Positions 20,843-27,453 of a DNA stretch of 27,453 nt are shown one piece after another (positions within the stretch are counted from its first letter, which is position 1; every line of letters starts with the position of its first letter). The position numbers and the translations under genes are program-made. Source of the DNA: a virus; the IMG/VR virus record IMGVR_UViG_3300008110_001169, positions 1,812-29,264 of that record; one strand, written 5' to 3'. A model generated the notes under the pieces. That model saw only the letters and a program-made list of their open reading frames with translations. It made no database searches and was not told the origin of the DNA.

Positions 20843-21368
20843 AGAAGATTTGGTTAAGCATCTTGATCAGGTAAACACTGTTGTCAGTGAATACCTAAAG
20901 GGCAATGACCCAACCGTAATCTCTAAAGAATTAGATATTCCACGTACTCGTGTTGTTACATTGATTAATGAGTGGAAGGCTATGGCTTCTGATAACTCTG
21001 CTATCCGTGCCCGTGCTAAAGAAGCACTGGTAGGTGCAGATACTCATTACACTAAACTTATTTCTAAGTCCTACGAAGTTATTGATGAAGCGTCAATGAC
21101 TAACAACCTTAGCGCAAAGACTGCTGCTATTAAACTTGTTATGGATATTGAATCAAAGCGTATTGATATGCTACAAAAGGCTGGTCTTCTTGAGAATAAA
21201 GAACTTGCAGAAGAGATGGTTGAGATTGAACGTAGGCAAGAAGTTCTTGTAGGAATTCTTAGAGATATTGCTTCAGAGCATCCAGAAGTTAGAGATATTA
21301 TTATGCAAAGACTATCTGCAATTGCTAAAGAAGGAGAAGTGATTACAGTTGTCCACGATGTTCAATGA
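20832..21368 (+). CDS. Terminase small subunit (putative)
   Basis: 178 aa, ATG 20832 with GAAGGAAAA ahead. The N-terminal 60 residues contain a helix-turn-helix (VISKELDIPRTRVVTLINEW), the rest is helical. This pattern, DNA-recognition helices then an oligomerising helical region, is that of small terminase subunits, which bind the packaging site. The strongest evidence is place: the large terminase follows, overlapping by 20 bases. Weak identity alone would leave it as an HTH protein. Confidence 0.72.
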   Translation: MSTEEDLVKHLDQVNTVVSEYLKGNDPTVISKELDIPRTRVVTLINEWKAMASDNSAIRARAKEALVGADTHYTKLISKSYEVIDEASMTNNLSAKTAAIKLVMDIESKRIDMLQKAGLLENKELAEEMVEIERRQEVLVGILRDIASEHPEVRDIIMQRLSAIAKEGEVITVVHDVQ

Positions 21369-23133
21369 GTTCCTTGAAGTATTAAAAGAGAATCATTTTG
21401 TTGAAAAACCTGTTGACGCAAAGACATTTGTTGAGTCTCCAGACTATCTAGGACAACCACCACTATCTAAAATTCAGTATGAAATCGTAGAAGCGATGAG
21501 CCAAATTTATCGTAAAGAAGATTTAGAAGAACTTTATGGCTCTGTTGAGGGAGCAAGATATTATACAAAATACACAAAGAATGAGATTATCCTGCAACTT
21601 GGCAAGGGATCTGGAAAAGACTTCGTATCAACTGTAGCGTGTGCATATACAGTATATAAACTACTATGCCTCAAAGACCCTGCAGTTTATTATGGCAAAC
21701 CTGCAGGAGATGCTATTGATATTATTAACGTTGCTATTAACGCTCAACAGGCTAAGAACGTGTTCTTTAAAGGCTTTAAAAGCAAGATTGAACGCTCTCC
21801 GTGGTTTGCTGGTAAGTATAATGCAAAGGCAGACTCAATAGACTTTGATAAGTCTGTAACTGTTTATTCTGGTCACTCAGAGCGTGAGTCACATGAAGGT
21901 TTGAACTTATTTATGGCAGTGCTTGATGAAATTTCTGGTTTTGCGTCTGAAGTTGGAACAGGTAATGAGCAGGGCAAAACTGCAGAAAATATCTATAAAG
22001 CCTTCCGTGGTACTGTAGACTCTCGTTTTCCTGATCTTGGTAAAGTTGTTTTGCTTTCATTTCCCCGTTATCAAGGTGACTTTATCTCACAACGATATGA
22101 GTCTGTTATTGCTGAAAAAGAAACCATAGAAAAGAAGCATACCTTTATTATTAATGAAGACTTGCCTCATGATGATCCAGGCAATCAGTTTGAAATTTCC
22201 TGGGATGAAGATACTATTCTTTCATACAAGATACCTAAAGTATTAGCATTTAAAAAGCCTACATGGGAAGTCAATCCTACAAGAAATATTAATGATTTTA
22301 AGATTGCATTTTATACAGACCTTGCAGATGCCATGATGCGTTTTGCCTGTATGCCTACATACTCATCTGATGCATTTTTTAAGGATAGAACTAAACTCGA
22401 AAAGGTTATGACTACTAGGAATCCACTGGATAACTTTAGAAGGTTTGACCAATCGTTCCAGCCAGATCCAGATAAGATTTATTATATTCATGCTGACCTT
22501 GCACAGAAGCACGATAAGTGTGCGGTAGCAATTGCTCACGTAGATCGCTGGGTAAGTATTCAGGTAATCAAAGACTATGAACAGGTAGCCCCAATTGTAG
22601 TAGTAGATGCAGTAGCCTGGTGGGAACCTAGAGCAGAAGGCCCTGTTAACCTATCAGAAGTTAAGCAATGGATTATGAATTTACGTAGACAAGGTTTTAA
22701 TCTTGGCATGGTTTCATTTGACCGTTGGCAATCTTTTGATATCCAGAATGAGTTGCAGGCTGTAGGAATAAGAACTGAGACTGTTTCTGTTGCAAAAAAA
22801 CACTACGAAGATTTAGCAATGATGATTTATGAGGAGCGTGTGGCTATGCCTATGATCCCTATCTTGCTAGAAGAAATGTCTGAGTTGAAGATTATGAAGG
22901 GGAATCGTGTTGATCACCCCCGCAAAAAATCTAAGGACTTAGCAGATGCTCTATGCGGAGCAGTATTTGGTGCAATATCTCATACACCAAAGACTAATAA
23001 TACTGAGATAGAAGTTCATACGTGGAGTTCTGCAACCCGACTTGCGGACAAACAAGCACGTATGGTAGAATTGGATAATCGGGAAATGCCTGAAGAAGTT
23101 CGGGAATATCTCGGTAACTTCAATTTATTATAA
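21349..23133 (+). CDS. terL: Terminase large subunit
   Basis: About 594 aa. The start used is TTG 21349, about 13 bases after GGAG; ATG 21358 is an alternative, three residues in. This motor packages DNA into the procapsid and cuts the concatemer. ATPase: Walker A in LGKGSGKDF (G85-K90 with K90), Walker B MAVLDEISG (D193, catalytic E194). Nuclease of the RNase-H type: D383 in IHADLAQKHDKCAVAIAH, D458 in VSFDRWQS, D533 in DLADALCGAVFG. All active-site residues are present, so it should work. The portal gene, which usually follows, is not found here; the exported protein gene comes next. Confidence 0.95.
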   Translation: MSTMFNEFLEVLKENHFVEKPVDAKTFVESPDYLGQPPLSKIQYEIVEAMSQIYRKEDLEELYGSVEGARYYTKYTKNEIILQLGKGSGKDFVSTVACAYTVYKLLCLKDPAVYYGKPAGDAIDIINVAINAQQAKNVFFKGFKSKIERSPWFAGKYNAKADSIDFDKSVTVYSGHSERESHEGLNLFMAVLDEISGFASEVGTGNEQGKTAENIYKAFRGTVDSRFPDLGKVVLLSFPRYQGDFISQRYESVIAEKETIEKKHTFIINEDLPHDDPGNQFEISWDEDTILSYKIPKVLAFKKPTWEVNPTRNINDFKIAFYTDLADAMMRFACMPTYSSDAFFKDRTKLEKVMTTRNPLDNFRRFDQSFQPDPDKIYYIHADLAQKHDKCAVAIAHVDRWVSIQVIKDYEQVAPIVVVDAVAWWEPRAEGPVNLSEVKQWIMNLRRQGFNLGMVSFDRWQSFDIQNELQAVGIRTETVSVAKKHYEDLAMMIYEERVAMPMIPILLEEMSELKIMKGNRVDHPRKKSKDLADALCGAVFGAISHTPKTNNTEIEVHTWSSATRLADKQARMVELDNREMPEEVREYLGNFNLL

Positions 23134-23134
23134 A

Positions 23135-23150
23135 ACAAACAAGGAGAAAG
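23135..23150 (+). promoter_or_regulatory. Strong leader and ribosome site of the exported Ig-like gene
   Basis: ACAAACAAGGAGAAAG ends right before ATG 23151. AAGGAGAAAG is a strong Shine-Dalgarno. It differs by one or two bases from the leader of the SSB gene at 12840-12855. No -10 element is evident in the 17-base gap, so transcription may come from upstream. Confidence 0.7.
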
Positions 23151-24764
23151 ATGAATTCATTTAAGAAAATTGCCCTAGGTCTTGCTGCAGCGATGACTTT
23201 TGGCGTTATGTCAGCACTTCCGACAAGTGCTGCTGTAAATGCACCGACACTAGCGATTGATTCAGCAACGGATGCTGTCACCGCTGGAGAGTCTGCAACA
23301 GCAGTAGTCACAACACTTCTAGAAACATCAACAGCCTCAGTAGTTATTGCAGGCAATAATGTTTCAGCAAATATTAACTCAACAGTTAATACTCCAACAT
23401 ATGTAACAGCAAAGTTTAAGGTGACACTAGATGCACCAGCAGTTGCAGGTACATACGAGGCCAAGATTCTAACAACTAATCCAGTCAATGGGCCAACAGT
23501 TTCATGGACAGTTACAGTTAAGGCAGCGGATCTAACTCCATCTGCTTCAACTACAACTTCATTCCTTAACTCTGGCGAAGTAACTACTGCAACAGCAGAT
23601 GCTGCAGTGTATGCTCCAAAGGCTACAGCAACAGATGCAGCAGCGGTTATCGTTGTTACACCTAAGAATGCAGCAGGCGGATCAGCAACAGAGTCAATGC
23701 TTGCAACTGTAACAGGTTCAGGCCTTATTGGATACGGAACAAATGCTACAACAATGTCAGCAACTGGCCGTGCTCTAGTAATCCCAAATGGCAACTACAT
23801 TGGCGTATTTGCTGACGGTACAGCAGGAGTGTCAACAATCACTCTTACAACCCTTACAGGTACAGTAATTGCAACAGAGCAGGTAACATTCTATGGTGAT
23901 ATCGCAACAATCGTTGCTACACCAGTTAAGTCTGTTATCGCAGTTGGTGCAAATACAACTACAATCAAGGCAGTTGCAAAGGATATCGCTGGCGTAACAG
24001 TCGGTGCAGGAACACTTTATGCATACTCATCAGACGTAGCAACAGTATCTGATTCAGGTACAGCAGCAACAATCGTAAACGGTGAAGCAGTGTTCACAAT
24101 CACTGGTGTTAAGGCAGGCGGAGTCGCAGTTACAGTTAAGTCTGGAACAATCGCATCTGCTCCAGTTGCTACTCGTGTAGAGGCAGCAGCAGCAACAGTC
24201 AAGTTGTCATTTGATAAGGCTGTATATCTTCCAGGAGAAGCAGCAACTATCAAGGTACAAGTTCTTGATGCAGCAGGTCTTCCAGTATCTGGAAAGACAC
24301 ATGCTAACCTATTTGCTACAGGTGGAATCACTTCAACTTATGCATTTGGTTCAGGCTCAGATGTTCTTACAGCAACATCAATCACAACTGATACAGAAAC
24401 AGTTAAATCATACAAGGTATTTATGCCTTTGACAGAAAATGTTGTAACAGTTTCTGCAACAGGTGGAACTTCACTTCCACTTGCTGGACAGGTTGTAGTA
24501 ACAGCATCAGCAGAGGTTTCTAATGCAGCAGCAAAGGCTGCTACAAAGGCTTCTGAAGATGCAGCAAAGGCAGCACAGGCTGCTACAGATGCAGCAATCG
24601 CTGCTTCTAAGGCTGCAGATGCTGCAACACTACAAGCACAGGCTGCAGTAGATGCAGTTGCTAAGTTGTCTGCAGATGTATCAGCAATGATCGCTTCACT
24701 TAAGAAGCAAATCACAGCACTAACCGCTTTGGTCGTAAAGATTCAAAAGAAGGTTAAGGCTTAA
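23151..24764 (+). CDS. Exported Ig-like repeat protein with Ala-rich helical C-terminus
   Basis: 537 aa. The N-terminus is a signal peptide: MNSFKK, a hydrophobic core (IALGLAAAMTFGVMSA), and a likely cleavage at PTSA-A around residue 27. Residues of about 28-450 are a chain of Thr/Val/Ala-rich beta domains; the segment at about 260-345 looks like a bacterial Ig-like (Big) domain and the one at about 350-450 like another sandwich. Residues of about 457-513 are an Ala-rich helix, then KKQITALTALVVKIQKKVKA closes the protein. No LPxTG or membrane anchor. Codon use is distinct: 28 of 30 lysines are AAG. It could be a cell-surface or S-layer-like protein or a virion decoration. The role is unknown. 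Confidence 0.7.
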   Translation: MNSFKKIALGLAAAMTFGVMSALPTSAAVNAPTLAIDSATDAVTAGESATAVVTTLLETSTASVVIAGNNVSANINSTVNTPTYVTAKFKVTLDAPAVAGTYEAKILTTNPVNGPTVSWTVTVKAADLTPSASTTTSFLNSGEVTTATADAAVYAPKATATDAAAVIVVTPKNAAGGSATESMLATVTGSGLIGYGTNATTMSATGRALVIPNGNYIGVFADGTAGVSTITLTTLTGTVIATEQVTFYGDIATIVATPVKSVIAVGANTTTIKAVAKDIAGVTVGAGTLYAYSSDVATVSDSGTAATIVNGEAVFTITGVKAGGVAVTVKSGTIASAPVATRVEAAAATVKLSFDKAVYLPGEAATIKVQVLDAAGLPVSGKTHANLFATGGITSTYAFGSGSDVLTATSITTDTETVKSYKVFMPLTENVVTVSATGGTSLPLAGQVVVTASAEVSNAAAKAATKASEDAAKAAQAATDAAIAASKAADAATLQAQAAVDAVAKLSADVSAMIASLKKQITALTALVVKIQKKVKA

Positions 24765-24779
24765 TTAGTCCAACAATTA

Positions 24780-24808
24780 GGGGAGTCAGGAAACTGGCTC
24801 CCTTTTTT
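24780..24808 (+). terminator. Rho-independent terminator
   Basis: GGGAGTCAG (24781-24789), GAAA loop, CTGGCTCCC (24794-24802), then six Ts. The stem is nine pairs with one G-T wobble. It lies 16 bases after the stop of the Ig-like gene and so ends that transcription unit. Confidence 0.92.
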
Positions 24809-24819
24809 GTTGCATAAAA

Positions 24820-24828
24820 TGATATAAT
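24820..24828 (+). promoter_or_regulatory. Putative extended -10 promoter
   Basis: TGATATAAT is a perfect extended -10, identical to that at 8731-8739. No -35 fits well, since the terminator occupies that position. A transcript would start at about 24835 and carry a 30-60 base leader with GGAAAGGG at 24847-24854. Confidence 0.6.
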
Positions 24829-24892
24829 AGGGTTATCAAACATCTTGGAAAGGGTGTGACCCAACATTAAATCTTTCCTACTAAAGAGTGGT

Positions 24893-27307
24893 TTGGTGGG
24901 GATCTTAGTGGTTTTGTGGCTTATCCTAGCCCCTTTTGATCATGCTCGTGCAACAGAAGAAGTAACATCCCAAGTTTCTACATCAGACACTGCTACAGCA
25001 ACTATTTCAGCAGGATCTACAGTAACAATTGAAAGCGCAACCGCCACCATTGAGACAGCCCAGACTGCTATAACTCAGGCTGAAACTGCCACGGCAGTCA
25101 TAGAGACCCAAGCAACAGCAATTACAAGCCCTACAGAGACTATAACAGCCACTATCACACAGGCTCAGACCTCTATTGTCCAGGCTCAGGCAGTAGTAGA
25201 TAGTGCTACTGTGTCTGTCAATAATGTTACTTCTGCTCAAAGTTCCCTGACTCAAGCGGTAGAAACGCAAACAGCCATGGCTCAAGTTGTAGCAAATGAG
25301 TCTGCAACAGTATTAACTTTAACCGATAGTATGACGGTTCTTTCTGGACAGATTGATAGCCAAACAGCAGTTGTCTTATCTGATAGTGCTACTGTAACCA
25401 CAGAACAGGGTCAACTACAATTAGTTCAAGACCAAATTAATCTTGCTAGTGCGGGTAATCCACAAACCACAGATCTTCCAAAAGATGATGACTATGCATT
25501 TAAGATGACATTACCTTATGCCCTTAGACTTGGTGATCAAGAATATACGGATGTATATGTTGCTACAAATGGTTTGATATCCTTTGGACAACTCCAAGGT
25601 TGGGGAGGAAATGCACCAGCAGTTTATATTAACTTCCGTGATTGGTGGAATGTTGACTCAGATACTTACCTAAGATACTCAACAACTATTAACTCTCTTT
25701 TAATTGAGTGGATGGTTAGAGGATATGGAACTCGTTCTGGACAATTAACTAATATTATTTTTGATGCAGATGTAAACCCAATTGATGGAACATGGAAAGC
25801 AGATGTAACCTCAGTTGGTGAACCAGGAAGTGGACAAGTCCAGGTTAATCAAATAGTCAATAATCAATTAACTGGATCTGTTATACAACAAAATTCTGGT
25901 AGTACACCAACAAATCTTTCAGCACATATTGATATCACTGGTTATACACCTTATACACCACTACCACCAGACACAAATCTAGAAGAAGCATTGGCATCTG
26001 CCCAAGCAGATTTACAAGCAGCCCAATCAGTTTTATCTGCTTCTCAATCAATTCTTAATGGATTACTTGCAAGTGAGAGCGCATTGCAATCTGAGATTGA
26101 TGCAGCACAAGCAGAACTATCTGCAGCACAAGCAGATCTTGCAGAAGCCACACAAGAAGTTGCTTACTGGGAGAATGAAGTAGATAATGCAGAATCAGAA
26201 ATGACCGCTGCAGTTGCAGCAATTGAGCCAGTAGTTGAAGCAATGAAGGCTGCTGTGGTTGTTGCACAAACAATTGTCAACAATACTCTTGCGGAAGAGG
26301 AAGCAGCACGACAGGCTGCATTAGCAGCAGAAGCACAAAGACAAGCATCTATTGCAGCAGATAATGCAAGAGCAGCAGAAGCCGCAGCCGCTAGAGCACA
26401 AGCGGAAGCAAAGGCTGCAGAAGAAGCCGCTGCAAAAGCAGAAGCAGATAGAATTGCTGCAGAAGAAGAAGCAGCCCAAGCCCAAGCGGATGCTGAAAAA
26501 GCAGAGGCTGATCGTATAGCAGCAGAAGAAGAAGCAGCCAAAGCAGAAGCAGAGGCAGAAGCAAAGGCCGAAGAAGAAGCAAAGGCTGAGGCTGAGAGAT
26601 TAGAAGCAGAGGCAGAAGCAGCAAGACAAGCAGAACTAGATGCTATTGCTGAAGCAGAGGCTAAAGAGGCAGAGGCAGAGGCTGCTAGACAAGCAGAAGA
26701 AGATGCTAAGGCAGAAGCAGAAGCAAAGCAAGCAGAGTTAGAAGCAGCAGAGGCTGAAGAGGAAAAAGCACAGGCAGAAGAAGAAAAGTTAGAAAAGATT
26801 CTTGAAGAAGCCAAAGATGGAAAAGAATTAACTGAAGAACAAAAAGAAGTTGTTGTTGAGGCTTTAGTAGCAAATCTTAAGGCTGGAGAATCAATATCGG
26901 CAGCAGAAGTGAAAGCATCTGGAGTTTCATATTCAGACCTTCCACCTTCAACACCAGTTGAAATTCGTACAGATGAAAGCGGAAATGCCCTTGTAATTAC
27001 AGCAGAGGTTGCAGCACAAGTAGAATTAGTTCAAGATCCAGGAGCATTATTAGAGGCAGCATTTACTGATCCAGGAGCAGCATTAGCAGCACTTGGAAGT
27101 ATTGGTGCAGATATGACTGAGGCAGAAAGAGAAGAAGCAACAGATATGGTTGTAGCAACAGTAGTAGCAGCAGGTGCTGCGATCAATGCAGCAGCAGTAG
27201 CAGCAGGAGGAGCCACTGGAGGTAGCACAGGTGGCGGAGGAAGTTCTGGCGGGGGTGGCGGTTCAGGCGCTAACTCACCAGGTTCAAGAGGAGGAAGAAA
27301 ATGGTAA
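24893..27307 (+). CDS. Exported coiled-coil protein with NIDO-like domain
   Basis: 804 aa from TTG 24893, or about 813 if an ATT at 24866 is used. Hydrophobic N-terminus (LVVLWLILA, then HARA-T as a possible cleavage site) indicates export. Residues of about 20-185 are Thr/Gln/Ala-rich helix. Residues of about 193-337 form a beta domain with DYAFKMTLPYALRLG and YVATNGLISFG, a pattern of NIDO-like sandwiches. Residues of about 360-660 are an Ala/Glu/Lys coiled coil reminiscent of TolA or fibre stalks, with a 21-residue repeat. A helical region and a Gly/Ser-rich tail end in RGGRKW. It is preceded by its own promoter and a terminator. Function unknown; an extended surface or attachment protein is plausible. 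Confidence 0.65.
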   Translation: MVGILVVLWLILAPFDHARATEEVTSQVSTSDTATATISAGSTVTIESATATIETAQTAITQAETATAVIETQATAITSPTETITATITQAQTSIVQAQAVVDSATVSVNNVTSAQSSLTQAVETQTAMAQVVANESATVLTLTDSMTVLSGQIDSQTAVVLSDSATVTTEQGQLQLVQDQINLASAGNPQTTDLPKDDDYAFKMTLPYALRLGDQEYTDVYVATNGLISFGQLQGWGGNAPAVYINFRDWWNVDSDTYLRYSTTINSLLIEWMVRGYGTRSGQLTNIIFDADVNPIDGTWKADVTSVGEPGSGQVQVNQIVNNQLTGSVIQQNSGSTPTNLSAHIDITGYTPYTPLPPDTNLEEALASAQADLQAAQSVLSASQSILNGLLASESALQSEIDAAQAELSAAQADLAEATQEVAYWENEVDNAESEMTAAVAAIEPVVEAMKAAVVVAQTIVNNTLAEEEAARQAALAAEAQRQASIAADNARAAEAAAARAQAEAKAAEEAAAKAEADRIAAEEEAAQAQADAEKAEADRIAAEEEAAKAEAEAEAKAEEEAKAEAERLEAEAEAARQAELDAIAEAEAKEAEAEAARQAEEDAKAEAEAKQAELEAAEAEEEKAQAEEEKLEKILEEAKDGKELTEEQKEVVVEALVANLKAGESISAAEVKASGVSYSDLPPSTPVEIRTDESGNALVITAEVAAQVELVQDPGALLEAAFTDPGAALAALGSIGADMTEAEREEATDMVVATVVAAGAAINAAAVAAGGATGGSTGGGGSSGGGGGSGANSPGSRGGRKW
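26444..26727 (+). repeat. Degenerate 63-bp (21-residue) repeats in the coiled coil
   Basis: ADRIAAEEEAA recurs with its copies starting 63 bases apart (26444 and 26507), and AEAEAARQAE later recurs, also 21 residues apart. Twenty-one residues are three heptads, so duplication keeps the coiled-coil phase. The DNA copies are imperfect. Confidence 0.7.
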
Positions 27308-27453
27308 GAGTAATAAAAAATATATTAAAAGATCTAGTAGATCAGGCATGGACTCTTCTTGGAATGTTTATTGCCTGGGTGGTATTAGACGGTAGTGCAA
27401 AAACAATAGTTGGTTATGGAATCATGGCAACACTTGGCCTTTGGATTATAACT
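27301..27453 (+). CDS. Small membrane protein, holin-like (3' end outside window)
   Basis: 51 codons from ATG 27301 to the edge of the window. It overlaps the previous stop by seven bases and has GAGGAGGAAG as ribosome site. After a basic, amphipathic N-terminus (MVRVIKNILKDLVDQ) come two hydrophobic stretches (AWTLLGMFIAWVVL; IVGYGIMATLGLWIIT) with a short charged turn. Such hairpin membrane proteins are often holins, but no endolysin is in view, so 'holin-like' is an inference. Confidence 0.5.
   Translation, partial: MVRVIKNILKDLVDQAWTLLGMFIAWVVLDGSAKTIVGYGIMATLGLWIIT

Follow-up and report, generated by a model that had tools for sequence, protein, structure and literature searches.

The plasmid pCF10 confers surface exclusion on Enterococcus through the stalk protein PrgA, whose operon also includes the immunoglobulin (Ig)-domain surface protein PrgB (PMC10588982). 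Among phages, Ltp of the Streptococcus phage TP-J34 is a superinfection-exclusion lipoprotein exposed on the host surface (PMC3952083), and Cryophage encodes cargo proteins of the type IX secretion system (T9SS), one of them with a PA14 domain, which vary highly between near-identical phages and for which superinfection exclusion was proposed (PMC7468147). Here we describe a locus in a stretch of 27,453 nucleotides of viral DNA (positions 1,812 to 29,264 of the IMG/VR record IMGVR_UViG_3300008110_001169, hereafter the window), where the large terminase gene (TerL) is followed by the genes of an exported Ig-like protein of 537 amino acids (aa), P1, an exported stalk protein of about 804 aa, P2, and a small membrane protein, P3. 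That P1 and P2 make up a phage-made module which infected cells export to their envelope is well supported, because signal peptides occur family-wide, P2 has a membrane-type C-terminus, its partners appear to be membrane proteins, and the module has been transferred across virion types; on the same grounds, the cell-surface module proposed in the first-pass annotation of this DNA is upheld. Surface or superinfection exclusion would be its most likely job, an assignment that we favour but hold tentatively.

The likeness to PrgA is one of architecture, since P2 would also be an exported protein encoded by a mobile element, with a long helical stalk that shows a distant domain, and the P1-P2 locus likewise pairs a stalk protein with an Ig-type surface protein. 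PrgA is described, however, with a protease domain and a cell-wall anchor, whereas P2 bears a tip with a NIDO motif or PA14, has a C-terminus of membrane type and is accompanied by a small membrane protein; the window P2 sequence contains no LPXTG cell-wall anchor and no Pfam domain, protease included, in its tip, its homologues having PA14 instead, and the resemblance seen is one of structure. With Cryophage the module shares exported, phage-encoded proteins, PA14 included, that vary between near-identical phages, but Cryophage has a Bacteroidetes host and uses type IX secretion, and the part of its description considered here mentions neither a stalk, P1, P3 nor a conserved multigene module. 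Ltp, on the other hand, is a 142-aa lipoprotein of temperate phages, 4-6 times smaller than P1 and P2, and the lipobox cysteine of Ltp and Llp is not present in the signals of P1 or of the window P2.

No paper on the P1/P2/P3 protein set was found in the literature. Among 599 candidate stretches from IMG/VR, whose records as used here are fragments, relatives of P1 were confirmed in at least 353, the C-terminal domain of P2 in at least 544 and P3 in at least 592. A family present in hundreds of contigs, with signals this constant, is too widespread for chance open reading frames (ORFs). A tblastn search of INPHARED (50,697 phage records) gave no homologue of P1, P2, the P2 C-terminal domain or P3, and two pattern-seeded contig scans of 84,980 GTDB genomes, queried for P1 and the P2 C-terminal domain but not for P3, gave no relative either, although such scans need an exact conserved peptide and distant homologues could escape them. 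The kinship of TerL together with the habitat literature (PMC10202952) indicates that the hosts are likely freshwater actinobacteria.

The exported proteins P1 and P2 and their membrane partner

P1 is encoded on the plus strand at 23151..24764, the first of two genes whose positions and sizes we could confirm from the first-pass annotation. A ribosome binding site, AAGGAG (23141..23146, plus strand), precedes it, and a Shine-Dalgarno-like site is found before P1 in 134/134 loci. The protein begins with a predicted Sec signal peptide of 28 aa (MNSFKKIALGLAAAMTFGVMSALPTSAA; 23151..23234, plus strand) that lacks a lipobox. Signal-peptide features recur in 86/86 distinct P1 sequences, none of which has a lipobox cysteine in the c-region, and an h-region with a cleavage-type motif in 92/95 distinct P2 sequences, so the prediction of signal peptides for both proteins holds throughout the family. 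The AlphaFold2 model of P1, of moderate quality and with low confidence over the first 150 residues, places Ig-like beta-sandwiches at residues 183-456 (23697..24518, plus strand), followed by a C-terminal helix of 78 residues with a basic end (residues 459-536; 24525..24758, plus strand), in agreement with the earlier description of the protein as Ig-like domains with a helical tail. Foldseek searches with this model retrieved the adhesin FdeC, complement MG domains and the surface-layer (S-layer) protein SbsC, all of them extracellular proteins of Ig type. A sequence search of the PDB with a P1 profile gave no match and the Pfam family Big_1 reached an E-value of 0.0077, below its gathering cut-off; the AlphaFold2 model and Foldseek support the Ig fold.

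Several features of this gene are consistent with high expression. Its effective number of codons (ENC), 36.4, is the lowest of 17 genes and thus marks the strongest codon bias, TTA, AGC and further codons that the neighbouring genes use being avoided; this bias, the strong Shine-Dalgarno site and a conserved terminator would fit together. The latter is an intrinsic terminator at 24779..24810 (plus strand), with an 11-bp stem and a T-run, and has counterparts in 60/68 distinct regions downstream of P1. As a separate observation, the window P1 has an in-frame gap of 93 nt (31 aa) at 23311-23312 (codon ~54), within the first Ig-like region. The contig L083 has the 31 aa in a P1 that is otherwise 99.4% identical, and among 147 P1 ORFs the gap is seen only in the window's own, so that it appears to be a private deletion.

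P2 follows on the plus strand at 24893..27307 if read from TTG 24893, or from ATT 24866. Its start is uncertain (24854-24893): in eight loci a good Shine-Dalgarno is followed by GTG or ATG directly before TGA, relatives read ATG TGG at this point, and translation in the window may begin at either of the two codons. Upstream lies an extended -10-like element, TGATATAATA (24820..24829, plus strand), with the pattern TGnTAnAAT in 49/49 distinct P1-P2 gaps; within the window alone this pattern is not rarer than chance would give, and the evidence for a promoter-like element is therefore its conservation. The predicted signal peptide (24878..24952, plus strand), which ends in WLILAPFDHARA, has no lipobox cysteine. 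According to an AlphaFold2 model of moderate quality (pLDDT 73, pTM 0.38), a helix on the N-terminal side of the stalk (residues 51-191; 25028..25450) leads to a beta domain with a NIDO motif, the exchangeable tip (residues 195-355; 25460..25942), and an Ala/Glu-rich helix forms the C-terminal side of the stalk (residues 368-646; 25979..26815), all on the plus strand. The coiled coils around a NIDO-like domain that had been proposed for P2 are thus borne out as helices flanking a beta domain, but the NIDO label finds no backing in Pfam, since searches with four tip subfamilies, run to E<=10, matched no Pfam profile, and the resemblance is one of motif only, VYVATNGLISFG.

Beyond the stalk, the family alignment and the model delimit a small conserved alpha/beta domain (residues 650-740; 26825..27097, plus strand), after which come a membrane-type hydrophobic helix detected by hydropathy (residues 748-777; 27119..27208) and, by sequence and family alignment, a Gly-rich linker with a basic tail, GSRGGRKW (27209..27304), both on the plus strand. 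The best 19-residue Kyte-Doolittle mean lies between 1.77 and 2.07 in all 82 distinct P2 tails, and 77/82 carry a net charge of +2 to +4 after the helix. By this simple hydropathy test, applied to an Ala-rich helix, the segment is likely a membrane anchor with the basic tail inside. The earlier statement that neither protein has a cell-wall anchor or lysis motif agrees with our Pfam searches, where no catalytic or lysis domain was found in P1 or P2, but it overlooked this helix and its tail.

The third protein, P3 (59 aa), has two predicted hydrophobic helices and starts at ATG 27301, inside the end of P2; the window end cuts its gene (27301..27453, plus strand), which is complete in L100 (851-1030), a contig that matches the final kilobase of the window at 99.8% identity and from which all genes past the window end were read. 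The membrane protein expected next in the same unit is present, and its overlap of 7 nt with P2 recurs in 131/135 loci. Where loci were sampled through P3 alone, P2 was directly upstream in 75/76, and the remaining one likewise overlaps a P2.

Exchange of the tip and transfer between phage backbones

The tip of P2 comes in three types: among 84 distinct complete proteins, 50 have PA14, 31 a NIDO-like domain, with four related subfamilies of NIDO-motif tips, and 3 a third type. PA14 (Pfam PF07691) scored above gathering (24 bits) in the three homologues tested, a set without the window P2, with 42.0 bits in L107, 34.4 in L026 and 30.1 in G009. Within 50 phages with a full TerL, 18 pairs with more than 94% TerL identity differ in their tips, the closest being L009 and L062, whose TerL proteins are 99.3% identical. 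Their DNA agrees at 96.4% identity as far as the end of the P2 promoter element and at 99.2% beyond P4, the holin-like gene that follows P3, whereas P2, P3 and P4 have been replaced between these two points. With such near-identical flanks around a replaced segment, the P2-P3-P4 cassette is therefore a unit of recombination. Phages alike in almost everything else would then differ in the ligand of the tip, if it binds one, as might be expected under exclusion, adhesion or competition.

Moreover, the module is found on other backbones. G009 (136 kb; loci L207-L213) has a PolA-type polymerase, and its portal and terminase belong to other PHROGs than those of the window, yet it carries P1 (77% identical), a P2 with PA14, P3 and, adjoining P1, a P4-like gene recognised by eye from its sequence. 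In this genome the module lies in two divergent pieces, P2-P3 at 40282-44360 and P1 at 52426-54138. G001, for its part, shares TerL and P1 (83.6% identical) with the window while its distal tail genes have no match to those of the window, so the module does not follow the distal tail genes. Five genomes (G001, G018, G023, G027 and G028) encode a helicase from the same family as the window's, at 38-86% identity; BLAST found no counterpart of the window tail genes in their upstream regions, which points to exchange of the tail module, although the G018 fragment may stop short of those genes. Since the P1/P2 family moves between unrelated virion types, an action at the host surface is favoured over a fit to the virion.

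Possible roles of the module in the infected cell

From these features we infer a surface localization, ligand binding by the window's tip and an exclusion outcome, which could be linked as follows. P1, P2 and P3, usually with the holin-like P4 downstream, would constitute an exported cell-envelope module made during infection. The host Sec pathway would secrete large amounts of P1, an Ig-like protein that would associate with the wall or surface. P2 would also be exported; its C-terminal helix and P3 would jointly retain it in the membrane, and its long helical stalk would hold out an exchangeable binding domain, whether PA14, NIDO-like or of another type, at a distance from the cell. Sugars or receptors on the surface may be occupied or masked by this tip and by the Ig coat; further virions would then not adsorb to infected cells, and progeny would not be wasted on those cells or their debris. 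This role is favoured because keeping virions away from debris and from cells already its own would benefit a phage directly, because the similarly built plasmid stalk PrgA serves surface exclusion, and because the variable PA14 cargo of Cryophage, the one parallel in the literature, received the same reading (PMC7468147).

Several points weigh against exclusion. No homologue of an exclusion gene was recognised, and the structural match between the P2 model and PrgA (6z9l; probability 1.00, E 3.7e-3) is a weak resemblance in which PrgA ranks only sixth, flagellins match equally and TM-scores are low, so that it may reflect nothing but a helix-beta-helix topology. The C-terminal helix of P2, rich in Ala and Gly and containing Asn or Gln, would make a marginal membrane anchor. 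No tracking between tip type and receptor-binding protein was established, phages with comparable tails being too few, and the swapping of tips is expected of an adhesin just as much. In this line, the tip could bind sugars on neighbouring cells or particles, drawing uninfected hosts near a cell about to burst or keeping cells or virions attached to particles. PA14 is found in adhesins (PMC7468147, citing Rigden 2004), the P1 model resembles the adhesin FdeC, a stalk with a tip is a common layout of Gram-positive adhesins (PMC7726212), and tip exchange suits changing ligands. The evidence does not set adhesion apart from exclusion, the ligand of the tip is hypothetical, and hosts that are very small, planktonic and sparse would presumably gain little from aggregation; we regard this alternative as unlikely. 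Somewhat less likely still is a role in the envelope at lysis, with P2, P3 and P4 in a late lysis cassette where P4 would be the holin and P2/P3 would span or weaken the actinobacterial envelope. Here the holin-like P4, which has hydrophobic segments, and an endolysin gene 3 kb downstream make a lysis role possible; P2, P3 and P4 travel together, a CHAP endolysin lies within 4.5 kb in 57/81 loci, and elsewhere in the family P3 leads into two genes, one for a small lipoprotein and one for a membrane protein. The label of P4 is however unsure, its match to the holin phrog_443 (E 1.7e-4) being surpassed by one to phrog_26427, annotated as 'nuclease' (E 2e-24); moreover, P1 and P2 lack any lysis domain, as said above, and the exchange of a sugar-binding-type tip would be unexpected for a spanin-like part.

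Two further proposals of the first-pass annotation fare worse. P1 and/or P2 could decorate the particle or act as fibres, joining it either once exported or when the cell lyses: a conserved C-terminal domain with a variable stalk tip is also typical of tail fibres, and in G009 the module genes sit among fibre-like genes. Tailed virions assemble in the cytoplasm, whereas essentially all members carry Sec signals, and P1 remains 77-84% identical across an unrelated portal and terminase (G009) and an unmatched distal tail (G001); such transfer between unrelated virion types makes decoration of the virion improbable. Mimicry of host proteins, for instance to replace or reinforce the host surface layer, would draw on the weak structural similarity of P1 to SbsC S-layer domains and on other phages that fill the P1 slot with other exported proteins bearing the same signal and tail. 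The GTDB scans described above, however, gave no host homologue, and the Pfam searches with P1 and P2 detected neither SLH nor any further domain that binds the wall, which leaves S-layer mimicry unsupported and, in our estimate, the least probable of these alternatives.

Taken in its most specific form, the surface-exclusion proposal is that of a mobile, tip-swapping module common to abundant freshwater actinophages, with P1 as an Ig coat and P2/P3 as a membrane-held stalk whose binding domain is exchanged by cassette, and this form we consider possible but doubtful. If this is true, phages would have their own equivalent of the surface exclusion known from plasmids, and competition between phages would gain a new dimension. 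Bacteria among the most abundant in fresh water are likely hosts of these phages, and hundreds of viral contigs carry the module without annotation; either exclusion or adhesion would mean that phages rebuild the surface of the infected cell with exchangeable binding domains. The natural pairs with swapped tips make the idea directly testable.

Terminase context and neighbouring genes

The TerL gene (21349..23133, plus strand) was identified by terminase matches to phrog_17415 and phrog_2699, and TerS-TerL-P1-P2-P3 is the commonest order among the loci compared. Its nearest relatives among named phages are the TerL proteins of Streptomyces Karimacvirus phages (about 54% identical), such as Yaboi (Stanwilliamsviridae), which shares with the window the order of tail, helicase-primase, single-stranded DNA-binding protein (SSB), DnaE, RecA and TerL genes but differs downstream of TerL, where HNH, hypothetical and tRNA genes are found. 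P1 and P2 had been thought to occupy the place where portal and capsid genes are expected. The portal and capsid genes of Yaboi, of the same lineage, occupy 24.7-29 kb, while its TerL gene lies at 69 kb; because TerL thus sits about 40 kb from the head genes, the argument from the position after TerL fails, and a displacement of portal and capsid by P1/P2 was ruled out.

In seven loci (L135, L194, L199, L142, L174, L106 and L175), the P1 slot after TerL holds a different exported family of 330-370 aa. These proteins share with P1 a signal of the MNSFKK type, and the basic C-terminal tail of P1 variants, YNALAxKWNxKNPKAKVALKK, is often present in them.

Regarding P3, a weak match to CdaA_N (19.4 bits against a cut-off of 23.8) was set aside. 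Downstream of it, the order in L100 is P4, a proteasome-like peptidase, a subtilase with a signal peptide, Hsp20 and the CHAP endolysin. The peptidase, a phage-encoded protein of proteasome/HslV type, lies at L100:1413-1937 (phrog_1040, E 1.5e-22), and the subtilase (L100:2137-3009; Pfam S8, 59.5 bits) would, after P1 and P2, be the third protein that the phage exports from this neighbourhood; relatives of it with S8 are found within 4.5 kb of P3 in 46/81 loci. In L087, L131, L072 and L016, two genes take the place of P4 after P3, one coding for a small lipoprotein (YRYxCxDPANW...CNPPxC), the other for a membrane protein.

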